Assembly: GCA_032252755.1 (NCBI GenBank)
Contig: JAVUPY010000054.1
Coordinates: 62,001-126,000 of the forward strand
DNA: 64,000 nucleotides
Direction of reading: 5' to 3'
Source of the DNA: Terriglobia bacterium
Lineage (GTDB): Bacteria > Acidobacteriota > Terriglobia > Terriglobales > Acidobacteriaceae
The translations under genes were made by a program, and so were the position numbers. The notes under the pieces are model-generated. The model had not been told where the DNA came from and did not search any database. It saw only the letters and a program-made list of their open reading frames with translations. This document shows, piece by piece, positions 4,508 through 56,646 of this stretch (positions within the stretch are counted from its first letter, which is position 1; every line of letters begins with the position of its first letter).

Positions 4508-7207
4508 GTGCGGATAATTCAACTCGGCATTCTGCTTTCTATTTCCATGACGGTCGTTCGTGCGTTTGGGCAAGCACCTGCCAGCCGGATCGATCTTCAT
4601 ACCGGCTGGACCCTTCAATCCTCATCTAAGGTCAAGGACGACGGCGCGACAATCTCTCGTGTCGGCTATCGCACGGACGGTTGGTACAAGATTACGGTGC
4701 CGGCAACAGTTTTGGCTGCCCAGGTTGCTTCCGGCGAATTCCCAGATCCGTACTTCGGGATGAACCTCCGCAAGATACCTGGCATGGCATATGCCATTGG
4801 GGCTCTCTTCGCGCACAAGCCGATTCCGCCGGACAGTCCCTACGCTTGTTCCTGGTGGTACCGAACCGAGTTCGCGTCGCCCGCGGGCAATCACAAGGTG
4901 GCTCTGCACTTTGACGGCATCAACAATCGCGCCAATATTTGGCTGAACGGGAAGAAAATTGCCGACGCGAAGGACATCGCCGGCGCTTATCGGACATACG
5001 AATTCGATATCACCCCGGACATCGCACCGCACCAAAGCAATGTACTGGCAGTCGAGGTCTTTTCGCAGACGCAAAACGATCTCGGTATCAACTGGGTGGA
5101 CTGGAATCCCACGCCGCCGGACAAGGACATGGGACTGTGGCAGGCCGTGTACCTGACCACGAGCGGTCCGGTCGAAATACGTTACCCAACGGTCGAAACC
5201 CATTTGCCCAACGGAGACAAGTCGCCCGCAGAATTGTCGGTCCTGGCCGAACTTAAGAACCTGACCGACCAACCGGTTACCGGAACCTTCCTCGCCGAAC
5301 TGCCGGAACTAGGCCTCGCAGTAAAGAAGTCGATCGCGTTGGATGGCCGCGAAACGAAGTCCATTACACTCACGCCTGGAGAATTCCCGCAACTCGCCGT
5401 CAAGAACGCACAACTGTGGTGGCCCGCGCAGATGGGCATACCATTCCTCTACCGTTTGCACACTTCATTTACCGTGAGTAACACGATTTCCGATTCAGCC
5501 ACCTCCCGAATTGGCATCCGTGAGGTCACCTCCGAGATGACTCCGAAAGGGGCGAGGCTATACAAGGTTAATGGCAAGCCGATCCTCATTCGAGGTGGCG
5601 GCTGGGCACCCGACATGCTGCTACGCCAAAATTCCGTGCGGCTGCGAAACGAATTTCAATATGTGCAGGACATGAACCTGAACACCATCCGCCTGGAAGG
5701 CAAACTGGAAGACGATGAATTCTTCAATCTCGCGGACGAAAAGGGAATTCTCGTCATGGCAGGGTGGTGTTGCTGCGATCTTTGGGAAGAGTGGGAGCGG
5801 TGGAATGGCGATCAACTGGCAGTTGCAACGGAGTCGCTTCGAAGTCAGAGCCTGCGTTTGCGCTCTCACCCGAGCCTGTTGATGTGGTTGAACGGCAGCG
5901 ATGGTCCACCCCCGGCAAACGTTGAAGCCGCCTACCTGCAGGTGTTGCAGGAAACGCAGTGGCCCAATCCCATCGAATCTTCAGCATCACAAACGCCCGC
6001 CGAGCTCACTGGAACCTCCGGCGTGAAGATGACCGGGCCCTATGACTATGTCCCGCCCAGCTATTGGTACATAGACCAGCAACACGGCGGCGCCTATGGC
6101 TTCAACACGGAGACAGGGCCCGGACCTGCGATTCCGACCGCAGGCTCACTTGCAAAATTTATCCCAGCAGACCACCTGTGGCCCATCGACGACATCTGGA
6201 ATTTCCACGCAGGGAGTGGCAATTTCAAGAACCTCAACAAGTTCAACTCCGCACTCACGGCGACGTACGGCGAGGTGACGAGCCCGCAGGATTTCCAACG
6301 CAAGTCGCAAGCCATGACCTATGACGCAGAACGCGCGATGTTCGAGGCTTACTCCCGCAATAAGTACACATCGACAGGCGTAATCCAGTGGATGCTGAAC
6401 AATGCCTGGCCTTCCCTGATCTGGCATTTGTATGACTACTACCTGCAACCGGCGGGCGGATACTTCGGTACCAAGAAAGCGAACGAGCCTGTTCACATCC
6501 AATACTCTTACGACGACCGCTCAATCGTGGTCGTGAATAGCACGTATCATCCAGTGGCGGGTCTCGAGGCTTCGGCCCGCCTTACAGATGTAAACCTTAA
6601 GGAAGAGTTCGCTCAGAGGGTGCCGGTTACAATCGGTCCTGACGCTGTTAAGACTGTCTTCTTGCTTCCCGATCCTCCGGCAGGATCAACTAACGTCCAT
6701 TTTCTGCAACTGAGGCTAACCGACGAAAAGGGTGCGCTCATCAGCACGAACTTCTATTGGCTTTCCACGAAGAAACCGGAATTCGACTGGCCAAAGACAA
6801 CGTACGTTTCTACTCCGATTACTTGGTACGAAGATTTCACCGCACTGGCATCCTTACCGCAGGTGCGATTGAACGTAACGTCCAGCCTGCATTCAGAAAC
6901 CAGTGGAGACGTGGTCCACGTTCATGTAAAGAACCCGTCGAAGACCCTTGCACTCCAGGTTCGCCTCGCAATCGACTCGGACAACAACGGCACGGAAATA
7001 CTTCCGGTGCTCTGGCAAGACAACTACATCTCCCTGATGCCGGGTGAAGAACGGACGCTCAAGGCGAAACTCCCCGACCGCCACTTGGCCGGAAGTGGGC
7101 CCGTAATCTCGATTTCCGGATGGAACATCCAGTCAGAAACGATTGCGATCGGGCCAACATCCCAACGCAAGAATTCTGCCATCAACCAGGTCAGGTTTTC
7201 ACCTTGA
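4508..7207 (+). CDS. secreted glycoside hydrolase family 2, exo-beta-D-glucosaminidase-like
   Basis: This 899-residue protein starts at GTG and has a signal peptide (residues 1-22, ending AFGQA). The GH2 layout follows: sugar-binding jelly roll (about 25-210, with the NWVDWNPTPPDKDMGLW signature of the CsxA/mannosylglycoprotein endo-beta-mannosidase group), immunoglobulin-like domain (about 220-330), TIM barrel (about 340-650) and C-terminal beta domains. The putative acid/base is Asp465 (WLNGSDG) and the nucleophile Glu535 (GFNTETGPGP), close to Asp469/Glu541 of the exo-chitosanase CsxA, which also uses Asp in place of the usual GH2 Glu. Expected role: release of glucosamine (or a related hexose) from chitosan-like chains in the periplasm or outside. 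No transporter or chitinase lies beside it. Confidence 0.85.
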   Translation: MRIIQLGILLSISMTVVRAFGQAPASRIDLHTGWTLQSSSKVKDDGATISRVGYRTDGWYKITVPATVLAAQVASGEFPDPYFGMNLRKIPGMAYAIGALFAHKPIPPDSPYACSWWYRTEFASPAGNHKVALHFDGINNRANIWLNGKKIADAKDIAGAYRTYEFDITPDIAPHQSNVLAVEVFSQTQNDLGINWVDWNPTPPDKDMGLWQAVYLTTSGPVEIRYPTVETHLPNGDKSPAELSVLAELKNLTDQPVTGTFLAELPELGLAVKKSIALDGRETKSITLTPGEFPQLAVKNAQLWWPAQMGIPFLYRLHTSFTVSNTISDSATSRIGIREVTSEMTPKGARLYKVNGKPILIRGGGWAPDMLLRQNSVRLRNEFQYVQDMNLNTIRLEGKLEDDEFFNLADEKGILVMAGWCCCDLWEEWERWNGDQLAVATESLRSQSLRLRSHPSLLMWLNGSDGPPPANVEAAYLQVLQETQWPNPIESSASQTPAELTGTSGVKMTGPYDYVPPSYWYIDQQHGGAYGFNTETGPGPAIPTAGSLAKFIPADHLWPIDDIWNFHAGSGNFKNLNKFNSALTATYGEVTSPQDFQRKSQAMTYDAERAMFEAYSRNKYTSTGVIQWMLNNAWPSLIWHLYDYYLQPAGGYFGTKKANEPVHIQYSYDDRSIVVVNSTYHPVAGLEASARLTDVNLKEEFAQRVPVTIGPDAVKTVFLLPDPPAGSTNVHFLQLRLTDEKGALISTNFYWLSTKKPEFDWPKTTYVSTPITWYEDFTALASLPQVRLNVTSSLHSETSGDVVHVHVKNPSKTLALQVRLAIDSDNNGTEILPVLWQDNYISLMPGEERTLKAKLPDRHLAGSGPVISISGWNIQSETIAIGPTSQRKNSAINQVRFSP

Positions 7208-7395
7208 ATACACACTGAATTACATCGCTCACAAATCTAATTTTCGATAGTCAGAACTAAGGCACTCGCGTCCCACAGCAGAGAGCCGCGGAAGTATACT
7301 GGCACCAGCAACTCGCGTCGGTATCTCCATCGGGGAGATGCGGAATCACGTGGGTCGTAGCAGCGCGACCTGTCGCGCACGGAGGTTGAGGAGAC

Positions 7396-46433: not shown

Positions 46434-46781
46434 ATGCACGAGTTGAGCATTGCATCCTCGGTGCTGGAGGCGGTCGCGAAGGAAGCGGAAAAGCGACCGA
46501 ATACGCGCTTTTTGAAAGTTGGATTGCGGATCGGGGAATTAGCGGCGGTGGATCGCGATGCGCTCAGCTTCGGCTGGGAAGTGCTGACGAAGGACACGGA
46601 ATGGCAGGGCTTGGAATTGGAGATTGAGTCGATCCCGCGGCGACAACGGTGCACGGTTTGCGGGCATGAGTTCGCGGCACCGGATTTTATGACCGCGTGC
46701 CCGAAGTGTACTGAGTTGATGACGATCACGATCGCGGGGGACGAATTGGACATTGCCTATCTCGAGGTGGAAGAGCCATGA
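46434..46781 (+). CDS. hypA: hydrogenase/urease nickel incorporation protein HypA
   Basis: The 115-residue nickel chaperone for [NiFe]-hydrogenase maturation starts MHELSIA (Met1-His2-Glu3 bind nickel) and has a zinc site of Cys73, Cys76, Cys89, Cys92 (RCTVCGHEF, ACPKC). Its stop overlaps the hypB start by four bases (ATGA), so the two are translationally coupled. No hydrogenase structural genes or hypCDEF are in the window; nickel may go to a hydrogenase or urease elsewhere. Confidence 0.94.
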   Translation: MHELSIASSVLEAVAKEAEKRPNTRFLKVGLRIGELAAVDRDALSFGWEVLTKDTEWQGLELEIESIPRRQRCTVCGHEFAAPDFMTACPKCTELMTITIAGDELDIAYLEVEEP

Positions 46782-47440
46782 GCCAGATTGCGGTGGAGAA
46801 GAAGGTCCTGAATGAAAACCAGATCGTGGCGCAGAAGCTGCGCGACACGTACCGCGAGCATGGCATCTTCTGCTTCAATATCATCAGCGCGCCGGGCTCG
46901 GGGAAAACGTCGCTGCTGGAGCGCACGCTGGAGCGGCTGCCGAAGGGCTCACGGGTAGCGGTGCTCACAGGCGACCTGCAGACAGAGAACGACGCAACGC
47001 GGCTGGCGCGGTTCGGCTTTCCCGTGCGACAGATCATCACCGGCGGAACCTGTCACCTGGATGCTCGCATGGTGGAGAGGCACCTCGCGGAATGGGACAT
47101 GGCGAACCTGGACACGCTCATCATCGAGAATGTCGGAAATTTAGTTTGCCCGACGAGCTACGACCTGGGTGAGGCGTTCAAGATCGTGATGCTCAGCGTC
47201 ACCGAGGGCGAGGACAAGCCGTTGAAATATCCGTCGATCTTTTTCAAATCGGAGTTGATGATCCTCAACAAAATCGACCTGCTGCCGTACGTGCCGTTCG
47301 ATGCCGATAAGGCGAAGGAGAATGCACGCAAGGTGCATCCGGGAATGGAGATCATCGATGTGTCGTGCACGACGGGGGCGGGGCTGGATACTTGGATGAA
47401 GTGGTTGGAAGGTAAGCGAGAAAGCCTGGTTCGAGCTTAG
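46778..47440 (+). CDS. hypB: hydrogenase nickel-insertion GTPase HypB
   Basis: This 220-residue SIMIBI GTPase delivers nickel with HypA. The P-loop APGSGKT is residues 38-44. The metal-binding pair lies in GGTCHLDA (about 92-99), NKIDLL gives guanine specificity, and ENVGNLVCP is a family signature. It lacks the His-rich or CxxCGC N-terminal nickel-storage segment of some HypB proteins, so it handles a single ion. The gene ends in front of a heptad array. Confidence 0.95.
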   Translation: MSQIAVEKKVLNENQIVAQKLRDTYREHGIFCFNIISAPGSGKTSLLERTLERLPKGSRVAVLTGDLQTENDATRLARFGFPVRQIITGGTCHLDARMVERHLAEWDMANLDTLIIENVGNLVCPTSYDLGEAFKIVMLSVTEGEDKPLKYPSIFFKSELMILNKIDLLPYVPFDADKAKENARKVHPGMEIIDVSCTTGAGLDTWMKWLEGKRESLVRA

Positions 47441-50388: not shown

Positions 50389-50620
50389 CGCGTTGCGATA
50401 TGAGCTAACAGCGTTCGATTTTATGGCCTCTAATCATTGCCCCCGGGCGTCTGGTTCATTAGAATGCGCCGGGCCCGAAAATCGGTCTTCCAGGCACCCC
50501 TTAGCGAGAGCACAGGCACTATGGATCGCATCCTTGATGGACAGGAAATATTGGCTAAGCTTCTCAATTGTCAGGACTTTTTACCTGCTCTGCAACTTTC
50601 TATCCGCAGCTTCATCTAAA

Positions 50621-50641
50621 GTTGAGTAAGATACACTCAAG
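50621..50641. promoter_or_regulatory. HAIR motif (HspR operator) before lon
   Basis: GTTGAGT, seven bases, ACTCAAG matches the HspR-associated inverted repeat CTTGAGT-N7-ACTCAAG in 13 of 14 positions, with exact spacing. It overlaps the ribosome site of lon (AAGGAG). Confidence 0.75.
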
Positions 50642-50648
50642 GAGTCAT

Positions 50649-53081
<2,433 letters not shown>

Positions 53082-53154: not shown

Positions 53155-53823
53155 TTATTGGCACCGATCCGTGGGTTCTCCCGGATAGTTCCCCTGCACG
53201 CACGGCACCGCGCTCAGGTACTCGTAGATGGCGCGGAGGTCGTGGTCGGTCAGCTCGCTGAAGGCAGGCCATGGCATGATCTGCAAAAGAGATCCGTCGA
53301 ATGGCGGTGGAATGCAGCTCGAGTTGGGCGCTCCACTGCAAGTTGGATGGAGATTGTCAGGATCTTTCCCTGTTCGCATAATAGAGACGAATTCTTCGAA
53401 ACTCGTACCGCCTTCGGGCAAGCCTGTTTTATCAGGTGTCAGGTTGCGGGAGATGATGGGAGCGGCGCCGGGAACCAGGGTGAAGACGCGGCCGCCGCCC
53501 AGATAAGTATTCGGGTTCACCATCTCCTGCTGGCCAAAGTAAGGATTGTGTCCGGGCGCAAACTGGGTCTGCGGTCCGGCGCTGTGGCAACCATTGCAGT
53601 CGCCAATAACATTCACCAGGTAACTTCCCAGTCCGACCAGCGCAGGATTCTTTCCTTTCATGTTTAGCGGAACAGGTGCAGCTGAGAATCCGGCCTGAAT
53701 CCTGGAGTCTGTGATTTCATTCTGGCCGCCTTGCGCCTTTGGCGCGAAGAGAGACGCAGTCGCGAGTATAAGACCGCCCAAGGCGATCCCGCCGATGATC
53801 TTCAATATCCACCGTTGAGACAT
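53155..53823 (-). CDS. secreted monohaem cytochrome c
   Basis: The 222-residue protein has a signal peptide or anchor (about 8-30, IIGGIALGGLILATASL) and one CxxCH haem site (CNGCH, about residue 78). An axial Met is possible in IMPWPAFSEL; a later Cys pair may form a disulfide (PTCSGAPNSSCIP). The fold resembles the c-type subunits of periplasmic alcohol or sorbitol dehydrogenases. ATG 53823 follows AAGGAGAGG; an in-frame extension to 53931 has no signal and is dropped. It is on the same strand as the NrfD gene, 235 bases downstream, and may receive its electrons. Confidence 0.88.
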   Translation of the reverse strand: MSQRWILKIIGGIALGGLILATASLFAPKAQGGQNEITDSRIQAGFSAAPVPLNMKGKNPALVGLGSYLVNVIGDCNGCHSAGPQTQFAPGHNPYFGQQEMVNPNTYLGGGRVFTLVPGAAPIISRNLTPDKTGLPEGGTSFEEFVSIMRTGKDPDNLHPTCSGAPNSSCIPPPFDGSLLQIMPWPAFSELTDHDLRAIYEYLSAVPCVQGNYPGEPTDRCQ

Positions 53824-54058
53824 ATTCCTCTCCTTATTTGATATACCAATGCGCGGATTGCGACTTGCCGGATTGAAATGAACTGCGTTGTGAACGCATG
53901 CCACGGGAGAGGGGCTTTGTGCCGCACACATTATTGCGGCAGGCGTATGAGGGCAATGGCAATTCAGTGCAGTGCGACTACGTCGTAAGGTGCACTGCTG
54001 CCTTACATCGAAAGGTGTAGGCAGCTTTTCCGAGGATCGTACCTACCGCCTTCCTGGA

Positions 54059-55243
54059 CTAGTCTGCTCCTGTGGCGGCGTGCAGTGGTTTCGCGTTAGC
54101 CTCGTACCAAGGTGGCAGCAATTTGAGCAGGACAGCAAGGATGATCAGCGGCAAGACCATCAGTCCTACTGCGATCAATAATCCTTCGCGCGAGATCAGA
54201 TCGAGTTTGTAAGTCGTGTAGCCGAGGAAGCTCTTCGAGAAGAGTTGGCCGCCAATAACGACGTTCCAACGCATCGCGAAAATACCAATGAGAGTAAGCG
54301 ATGCTGAGATCGCGTAGATGACGCGGCGCGCCTTCTCGGGCACTTTGAAGAATTGGAGCAAACCAATGGCGACGATGGGCACGATCGTTCCCAGCGAAAT
54401 CTGCAGAACGATCTGCGAGAAGTAGAGTTTGGTGTGCACCATGAAGTCGAGGCTGCGGAAGGATTCGTCGGCTTCATAGATACGTTGAATCAGGTCGACC
54501 ATTTCAAGCGTGAAGTCGATTAAGAACATGTAGAGCAGGTATTGCGCGATGGTATCGACACAGCGCATGTCGATGATCTTTTTGCGCAATTGTGATGTCG
54601 CCATGTAGATGAGCAGGACAACGGCGATGCCTGAGACCATTGCGGAGAACAGAAACACCACGGGCATCAAAGGCGTCGACCACCATGGGTTCGCCTTGAT
54701 GGAACCGAAGATGAACCCGACATACCCGTGCAAGAGGAAAGCCGAGGGAATACCGATCAGGGTGACGATATAGCCGACGCGGTCATCGATTCGCAGGGCA
54801 GCTTCACTAATATTGGTCGAACCGAGCGTAAGAACGCGATATACGAGCTTTTTCCATCCGGTAGACGATTGAGCCAGCAGGACAATATCTTTGCGGAAAT
54901 CGAGCCATATCTCCAACACCAAAACAGCCATCAAGTACCAGAGATAGACGAAGCCGAACATCGCCATCGCCGAGCTACGGTGTGGTGTCAGGTACATCTC
55001 CAGCGACCGCTCGGGGTGGCCAAGGTGCAGTTGCAACGGCATCGGCGCGACCAACAGGAACGCCAGCGCAGTCAGCAACGCCAGGCGGTAAGTTGGTTTG
55101 ACTGCCTCGACGTGGAAGATACGCTCGAGCGATGCCAGGATAAATGCGCCAGCGACCAGTCCGGTGATATACGGATAGACAACGATGAGGATGCTCCACT
55201 GGAGTTCAACTTCGTTGGGATACATGTAACCTTGAACAGGCAT
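54059..55243 (-). CDS. nrfD: NrfD/HybB-type membrane quinone-interacting subunit
   Basis: This 394-residue protein has about ten membrane helices without haem ligands, as in NrfD/PsrC proteins that exchange electrons and protons with quinone. It starts MPVQGYMYPNEVELQWSILI and has LGHPERSLEMYLTP, a conserved loop near the quinone site. It is the third gene of the cytochrome-FeS-NrfD set; GGGAG lies 8 bases before ATG and 13 bases separate it from the FeS gene. The direction of flow (quinol oxidation or quinone reduction) cannot be told from sequence. Confidence 0.9.
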   Translation of the reverse strand: MPVQGYMYPNEVELQWSILIVVYPYITGLVAGAFILASLERIFHVEAVKPTYRLALLTALAFLLVAPMPLQLHLGHPERSLEMYLTPHRSSAMAMFGFVYLWYLMAVLVLEIWLDFRKDIVLLAQSSTGWKKLVYRVLTLGSTNISEAALRIDDRVGYIVTLIGIPSAFLLHGYVGFIFGSIKANPWWSTPLMPVVFLFSAMVSGIAVVLLIYMATSQLRKKIIDMRCVDTIAQYLLYMFLIDFTLEMVDLIQRIYEADESFRSLDFMVHTKLYFSQIVLQISLGTIVPIVAIGLLQFFKVPEKARRVIYAISASLTLIGIFAMRWNVVIGGQLFSKSFLGYTTYKLDLISREGLLIAVGLMVLPLIILAVLLKLLPPWYEANAKPLHAATGAD

Positions 55244-55256
55244 TTCTGCACTCCCC

Positions 55257-55985
55257 CTAGCGGACCGAGCCGTCCAGGTCGTTGTAGTAGACCTTAGCGC
55301 CAGTGGCGAGATACGGCTTCAGCACCTGCACGGCGTGAGTCTTCAGGAATTCGTGGATCGGATCTTTGGGATTCTTCAAGTCAAACAACTGGCGCGCACC
55401 CGTTGGACAGTTCTCGCAGCAGGCTGTCGTCAGCCCTTTCGTGATGCGGTGATAACAGAGCGTGCATTTCTGGGCCGTGTGCGTGGTCGGATCGAGGAAA
55501 CGGCAGCCATACGGACATGCCTGGATGCAGTATCGGCAGCCGAGGCAGTACTTGCTGTCGACAAGCACGACCCCTTCAGGGGAAACGAAGGTTGCGCCGA
55601 CGGGGCAGACCTGTGTGCAGGGAGAATCGGCGCAGTGATTGCATAGCTTCGGGACGAAGAAGTTCTTCCCGCCGGTTTCGGTGCTGGGTGGGAAGCCGTT
55701 CTTGCCGCCGTCGGGCGAGTCGACCTTGGGGTTCTCCATGTGCCAGTCGGCGACGTGGTAACGCTCCACCCAGGTGCGGAAGTACTCATCGGGCACATCG
55801 TTTTCGGTGGCGCAGGCGCGCACACAATTCCCGCAGCCAATGCACTTCTCGATATCGACCAGCATGCCGTACCAGTGCTCGCCCTTCTCATAATTGGGAG
55901 ATTCCGCGGGAGTACCCGCAGACACGTATTTCCAAGCGACAGCCGCGGCCGGAAGGAGAACCAGGAAGTGACGACGCGTGATCAT
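55257..55985 (-). CDS. 4Fe-4S ferredoxin-type subunit with Tat signal (NrfC/DmsB-like)
   Basis: The 242-residue protein has a twin-arginine signal (TRRHFLVLLPAAAVAW) and four [4Fe-4S] motifs: CIGCGNCVRAC, CNHCADSPCTQVCP, CLGCRYCIQACP and CTLCYHR with CCENCP. This is the electron-transfer subunit that links the cytochrome to NrfD on the periplasmic side. The start ATG 55985 overlaps the stop of the tetrahaem gene (ATGA); the frame continues upstream only as overlap. Confidence 0.92.
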   Translation of the reverse strand: MITRRHFLVLLPAAAVAWKYVSAGTPAESPNYEKGEHWYGMLVDIEKCIGCGNCVRACATENDVPDEYFRTWVERYHVADWHMENPKVDSPDGGKNGFPPSTETGGKNFFVPKLCNHCADSPCTQVCPVGATFVSPEGVVLVDSKYCLGCRYCIQACPYGCRFLDPTTHTAQKCTLCYHRITKGLTTACCENCPTGARQLFDLKNPKDPIHEFLKTHAVQVLKPYLATGAKVYYNDLDGSVR

Positions 55986-56470
55986 GCCTTTTTCTCCTTC
56001 GGCGCCAGCAGAGGACTGTGCGGCTGATGACAGGTGTCGCACTTGATATCGCCCATGTGATCCTTGGTCACCACCTGGGGAAATCCCGCAGGCTTTGCGA
56101 TGTTGGCCTCGTGGCAGCGCGGACACAGCGACAGTGGCTCGGGAAGTTGAGGAACGACATCGCCCGGGTCGGCGGCATGCTTCGCCAGCGCGCCGTGACA
56201 GGCTTCGCAGTTAACGCCTGCATGCTTGCCGGTTTTCTTTAGTTCCATAACATCGGAGTGACAATCTTCGCAGGCTTGGTGTCCCGCAAACCTCGGCTCG
56301 CGTTCCGCAATCTCTTTCAATGCGTTGCCGCGATAGTGGCCGTATTGTCCGAAACTCTTGGGAACGAAGTGTGCCCGGAGGATGAGGAAGACGATAATGC
56401 CAACAGCGAAGACAGCTGCGAGCCGCAGTAGATGCTCGACGTCTTTGAATTTACCCACGGTTCGATCCAT
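55982..56470 (-). CDS. membrane-anchored tetrahaem cytochrome c
   Basis: The 162-residue protein has an N-terminal membrane helix (about 12-32, LLRLAAVFAVGIIVFLILRAH) and four CxxCH sites (CEDCH, CEACH, CPRCH, CDTCH) with extra His ligands, as in NrfB or cytochrome c3/c7-type subunits. It is the first gene of the cytochrome-FeS-NrfD operon. The start is taken as ATG 56470; ATG 56533 in the same frame cannot be excluded (21 residues longer). No catalytic molybdopterin or nitrite reductase subunit follows. Confidence 0.88.
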   Translation of the reverse strand: MDRTVGKFKDVEHLLRLAAVFAVGIIVFLILRAHFVPKSFGQYGHYRGNALKEIAEREPRFAGHQACEDCHSDVMELKKTGKHAGVNCEACHGALAKHAADPGDVVPQLPEPLSLCPRCHEANIAKPAGFPQVVTKDHMGDIKCDTCHQPHSPLLAPKEKKA

Positions 56471-56646
56471 GAGGTGCCCCATACTCGCAGGGCAGCCTCG
56501 GGCCTGATTGCGTGGTTCATGTGAATACTTCATCTTTGGGCAAGGACTCGGTGATTTCTGTCACTAAGTGACGTGATGCTCGTCAAAAACGGTGCAGAGG
56601 AGCCCTGAATTAAGAGTGCAGACCACCTCTAGGCTATATTTATGGA

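Follow-up and report, generated by a model that had tools for sequence, protein, structure and literature searches.

The region directly upstream of lon in an acidobacterial genome contains an inverted repeat of the HAIR type, which raises the question of whether this protease gene is controlled by the repressor HspR. The repeat lies in a window of 64 kb (the whole stretch of DNA that was analysed), corresponding to bases 62001-126000 of contig C54 in a genome (G000) of 5.39 Mb, assembled in 96 contigs and 99.98% complete. From the sequence comparisons described below, we regard it as very probable (about 0.92) that the repeat is an HspR operator. The earlier note on this DNA had proposed an HspR-type HAIR circuit at acidobacterial lon, starting from a repeat one base off consensus, exactly spaced and set against the lon ribosome site; the repeat is present as described, and the proposed circuit is supported by an hspR gene, by repeats at dnaK and hsp20-clpB, by a repeat before lon in every family genome compared, and by the co-occurrence of the dnaK repeat with HspR.

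The repeat at the lon ribosome site

The HAIR consensus, CTTGAGT-N7-ACTCAAG (Grandvalet et al. 1999, quoted in a passage of PMC6102357), differs from the lon-upstream repeat at a single position, i.e., a C-to-G change at base 1, and the spacing of seven bases is exact (Table 1). The right arm overlaps the ribosome site by three bases (AAG). The lon product has the Lon substrate-binding, AAA, lid and Lon_C domains in a profile search; a second, distant lon paralogue, with 35% identity in the N-terminal part, is located at G000:C31:6539-7141.

Table 1 Features of the lon upstream region (window positions) and the hspR gene (contig and locus positions)
Feature	Position	Strand	Description
Candidate HspR operator of HAIR type, GTTGAGT-AAGATAC-ACTCAAG	50621-50641	+	Arms 50621-50627 and 50635-50641; read from sequence
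lon, ATP-dependent protease La, 810 aa	50649-53081	+	TIGR00763, 972.4 bits (cut-off 608.05)
AAGGAG ribosome-binding site of lon	50639-50644	+	Read from sequence; ATG at 50649
Putative ECF-sigma-like lon promoter, AACTT-N16-TCTAA	AACTT 50594-50598; TCTAA 50615-50619	+	Sole match in window
hspR, 130 aa	C7:70471-70860 (L011:4469-4861)	-	NCBIfam HspR model NF047375, 105.9 bits (cut-off 105)

Assuming equal base frequencies, simple arithmetic gives about 0.01 expected HAIR matches with at most one mismatch per 64 kb, and about 0.3 expected copies of the exact core TTGAGT-N7-ACTCAA in the 5.39 Mb genome, where the lon site is the single occurrence. Four other genomic places come within one mismatch of the core, three of them inside frames (on C32, C52 and C62) and one, on C70, intergenic and before a non-chaperone frame (all by eye). 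At looser match there is no excess: HAIR at up to three mismatches is found twice in the window against 1.83 expected, which is not significant, and the core at up to two mismatches gives 85 forward matches genome-wide against 157 for the reversed control. Since the core is rare yet unenriched at looser match, the case for an operator rests on place and conservation and not on rarity alone. These same two counts, i.e., three-mismatch matches being expected in any window and the core being unenriched, would fit a chance inverted repeat, a reading that we judge practically negligible, because canonical copies occupy an equivalent position ahead of lon in genomes of four genera (see below), with flanks that differ widely except for a CATC box.

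The overlap with the ribosome site also admits a reading at the level of the mRNA, in which the repeat, without HspR, acts as an RNA thermometer by folding into a hairpin that masks the ribosome site. The arms can form six base pairs around a seven-base loop, with the 3' arm overlapping the site. However, the stability of the fold falls below the shuffle mean (z 0.75; equalled or bettered by 156 of 200 shuffles), and across the 19 distinct versions in the family 64.7% of pair cells are paired, where shuffling gives a mean of 67.6%, with a covariation score of 0.014 against 0.042 for the shuffles. In addition, the similar repeats at dnaK and hsp20-clpB coincide with a presumed -35 box, ahead of the transcribed region. 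The RNA thermometer was rejected for its weak fold and lack of covariation, and we consider a role of the repeat in the mRNA very unlikely.

The repressor gene and the sites at other chaperone genes

Control by HspR would imply, as the earlier note pointed out, an HspR encoded elsewhere in the genome and HAIR motifs before dnaK and clpB. Both expectations held: hspR is located downstream of dnaK and dnaJ, and motifs were found before dnaK and, by way of an hsp20-clpB pair, before clpB, in degenerate form. The hspR product clears the NF047375 cut-off narrowly (106.3 bits in the whole-genome search) and scores 64.6 bits with MerR_1; it is one of six MerR-type frames in the genome, and of the five others the frame at C24:127461 has weak HspR similarity (36 bits). 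The gene order, all on one strand, is dnaK (642 aa), a 121-aa ORF, dnaJ (350 aa), a GNAT acetyltransferase gene and, directly after it, hspR, about 2.4 kb downstream of dnaK; grpE was not seen in this stretch (L011 4469-9184). The 121-aa ORF, at 6928-7293 (-) of L011 (G000:C7:66000-80000), looks Hfq-like and has no Pfam or NCBIfam match. Of the 21 family genomes that have both genes, 18 (counted by eye) carry hspR on the same contig as dnaK and no more than 10 kb away, the exceptions being G018, G103 and G107; in G083 and G115 it is on the opposite strand.

Across the phylum, some match to NF047375 occurs in 196 of 199 genomes, 50 of them above the cut-off and many at 96–105 bits. Among 14 control genomes, 11 match and three exceed the cut-off, so that some of the low-scoring matches will be other MerR proteins. 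Since HspR is common in Acidobacteriota, its presence in this genome is no surprise.

The dnaK promoter carries CTTGACA-ATAAATG-ACTCAGA, 115 bases before the ATG, and the hsp20-clpB promoter carries CTTGACA-GTACTAC-ACTCATA. Each copy keeps the seven-base spacing and has four mismatches to the consensus, a degeneracy that results from the merging of the left arm with TTGACA. At both promoters, 17 bases separate this TTGACA from TATCCT or TATGCT (by eye), which places the repeat over the presumed -35 box of a promoter of sigma-70 type. The combined pattern TTGAS-N8-ACTCA, which was written after the two sites had been seen, gives 15 matches genome-wide on both strands against 23 for the reversed control; as it is unenriched, the argument rests on the location of the sites. 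Upstream of clpC there is nothing better than five mismatches to HAIR, and the second dnaK, which its neighbours mark as HscA-like (by eye), has no more than a three-mismatch HAIR-like site 1.6 kb upstream. This site, at 454-474 of L022 (G000:C52:36500-41500) and about 230 bases before an IscA-like frame that leads the HscA-like dnaK paralogue, is probably a chance match.

Conservation at lon and co-occurrence with HspR

We compared 70 lon upstream regions, drawn from 121 class genomes with a Lon match, the remaining 51 of which often hold just a distant paralogue. The 70 comprise all 22 genomes of family f1, presumably Acidobacteriaceae in view of a second collection with labelled loci, and 48 from outside this family; the 22 belong to 10 genera and are not independent, since 11 of them fall in one genus. 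The pattern YTGA-N9-RCT(C/A)A, written after seeing the family, precedes lon in 22/22 family genomes and in 0/48 of the others. Measured against the published consensus, five of the 22 family repeats (G000, G047, G119, G078 and G054, from four genera) have at most one mismatch, seven have at most three and 15 are weak forms with four or five, whereas the other families have none of 48 within one mismatch and four within three.

Among spacings of 0 to 17, seven alone yields copies with at most one mismatch. At up to four mismatches, a spacing of three is found in 11/22 and a spacing of seven in 14/22, and nine of the 11 reuse the same right arm. The weak form is typically TNTGATA-N7-ACTCAAT, the last bases of which reach the presumed ATG in several genomes. 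Because six of 76 non-acidobacterial lon upstreams also match at four mismatches, weak forms mean little alone. In the second collection, the repeat is present at six of 12 labelled lon loci, the carriers being Granulicella sp. S156, Edaphobacter, Silvibacterium, an Acidobacteriaceae bacterium and two records named Acidobacteria bacterium. It is this conservation before lon that disfavours the chance reading. In family f6, variants such as CTTTAGT-N7-ACTAAAG precede lon in 14 of 19 genomes (e.g., L265/G051 and L262/G098), by a pattern written after seeing them; they are possibly a second HAIR dialect.

For dnaK, the upstream regions of 110 of the 117 genomes with a hit were compared, G092 being kept despite a dnaK start off the expected codon. 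Genomes were labelled HspR+ or HspR- by our own cut (an orthologue at E below about 1e-36), and a site was counted when a TTGA-anchored right arm had at most two mismatches to ACTCAAG. By this measure the half-site stands at spacing seven in 85 of 104 HspR+ genomes (51 within one mismatch, 17 exact), whereas none of the remaining spacings between 0 and 19 exceeds six of 104. It is found in one of six HspR- genomes, a difference with a Fisher p of 0.002 that is computed on genomes that are not independent. The six are G008, G017 and G025 (one family), G071 (with a weak match at 6e-16), G067 (81% complete) and G009.

The last of these, G009, is a member of family f1 that has repeats at both lon and dnaK and no detectable HspR orthologue, in an assembly rated 100% complete and in about 100 contigs. 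Its hspR may lie in an assembly gap, the operators may have outlived hspR, or another protein may bind them. Such retention of the repeats, together with the five further MerR-type frames of the present genome, one of them weakly HspR-like, would suit an operator that belongs to another regulator with a similar half-site. However, the arms and spacing match HAIR, the motif is common to dnaK and hsp20-clpB, and the dnaK motif is absent from five of the six genomes without an HspR orthologue; we therefore give another regulator an even smaller chance than the hairpin. In G018, HspR is present and no HAIR was found in the sequence examined before dnaK.

The hsp20 repeat does not discriminate, with six of 25 HspR+ genomes against one of five HspR- genomes among the 30 examined of 114. 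No other spacing there exceeds one genome of either group. The HspR- carrier is G074 (88% complete), with CTTGACA-N7-ACTAAGG; G012 has none. Within 1500 bases upstream of clpB, the repeat is found at six of 30 loci (G000, G018, G103, G081, G101 and G084).

Promoter layout, proposed mechanism and known HspR systems

The lon repeat itself coincides with no sigma-70-type promoter in a consensus scan. Just 5' of it lies the element AACTT-N16-TCTAA, which we take to resemble ECF sigma promoters of the sigma-E type. Comparable elements (TGNRAC...CATC or GTCTA) stand before lon in 17 of the 22 family genomes (mean 0.02 and maximum 1 in shuffles) and in two of 48 upstreams from other families, under a pattern tuned on the same family lon sequences, with five of 22 family genomes having no element. 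Among the 21 family genomes in which the dnaK repeat was placed, three carry the entire element before dnaK; the CATC box by itself occurs in 17. Genome-wide, a short form of the pattern gives eight matches, lon included, against 27 for the reversed pattern, i.e., no enrichment, and no sigma gene was recognised downstream of the eight (by eye), so that these counts lend the element no independent support. An ECF-type promoter 5' of the operator is a possible driver of lon and, if this reading is right, transcription starts inside the operator. Alternatively, lon transcription might start from a sigma-70-type candidate further upstream, at 50437-50465 (+) (TTGCCC-N17-TAGAAT, 9/12 in the consensus scan), with the repeat acting as a roadblock.

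In the mechanism that we propose by analogy, HspR, together with DnaK, would occupy 50621-50641 at normal temperature, cover the region before the ribosome site and block lon transcription. Upon heating, damaged proteins would occupy DnaK and HspR would be released, so that lon, dnaK-dnaJ and hsp20-clpB would rise together. We infer HspR binding, repression, the co-repressor role of DnaK, the lon transcription start and heat induction; the DnaK step is taken from Streptomyces. More tentatively, with somewhat less than even confidence, lon of Acidobacteriaceae may be a two-input stress gene, in which an ECF-type sigma factor drives the AACTT-N16-TCTAA-like promoter and HspR vetoes from an operator over the transcription start (over the presumed ATG in Granulicella/Edaphobacter-type genomes); at dnaK and hsp20-clpB, HspR would instead sit on the sigma-70-type -35 box, with the left arm bent to a TTGACA that serves both proteins. 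One operator type in two promoter layouts would allow a clean comparison of modes of HspR repression.

The candidate circuit follows the Streptomyces one in its MerR-family repressor, its CTTGAGT-N7-ACTCAAG-type repeat and its dnaK, clpB and lon genes. According to passages of PMC6102357, the Streptomyces HspR regulon combines the HAIR repeat with the dnaK operon and clpB as targets, and a co-repressor role of DnaK is given in the title of Bucca et al. 2003, cited there. In actinomycetes, lon is named as an HspR/HAIR gene by Sobczyk et al. 2002, as cited in a passage of PMC13033682. Unlike Streptomyces, the acidobacterial dnaK and dnaJ are separated by the 121-aa ORF, with the acetyltransferase gene also in the stretch and no grpE between, and the dnaK and hsp20-clpB sites are asymmetric, with a left arm that has fused into TTGACA. 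Three HAIR copies are recorded for the dnaK operon of S. coelicolor (passage of PMC6102357), against the one seen in the present genome.

In Mycobacterium tuberculosis, HspR represses clpB, the small heat-shock gene acr2 and the hsp70/hsp40 genes, the same kinds of genes as acidobacterial hsp20-clpB and dnaK-dnaJ; lon goes unnamed in the passage concerned (PMC7448276). Deinococcus radiodurans, of a different phylum, provides a case of HspR outside Actinobacteria, with HAIR sites on chaperone and protease genes (passage of PMC6888292). Helicobacter pylori has HAIR-like repeats that are degenerate relative to the Streptomyces consensus and needed for HspR binding; its operators span 70–80 bp at Pcbp, Pgro, Phrc and in speA, and lon is not among the targets named in those passages (PMC6102357). 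In Corynebacterium glutamicum, the ECF sigma factor SigH and HspR act on overlapping heat-shock genes (passage of PMC3489674), whereas the acidobacterial ECF-like element is a prediction. In a Granulicella omics study, transcripts of lon2, dnaK and the chaperone gene hspA were lowered on high sugar (passage of PMC7074687), which would fit a shared regulator; lon2 may differ from the present lon.

No report of HspR or HAIR in Acidobacteria was found in the literature searched, which omits most subscription journals. HspR control of lon is already known in actinomycetes, and what would be new is the acidobacterial case, with a distinct operator placement at lon. It predicts part of a heat-shock circuit in a large and poorly cultured soil phylum, in which HspR would set the levels of chaperones and Lon protease in the class, and it supplies a list of operators, along with genomes that have either retained or lost both the repressor and the dnaK operator.

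As for the neighbouring genes in the window, frames for a cytochrome c, an NrfD-like membrane protein, a 4Fe-4S ferredoxin and a multihaem cytochrome lie in a row beside lon at 53155-56533 (-) (by eye) and apparently form a respiratory module, and adjoining hypA- and hypB-like frames, of hydrogenase/nickel maturation type, are found at 46434-47440 (by eye).
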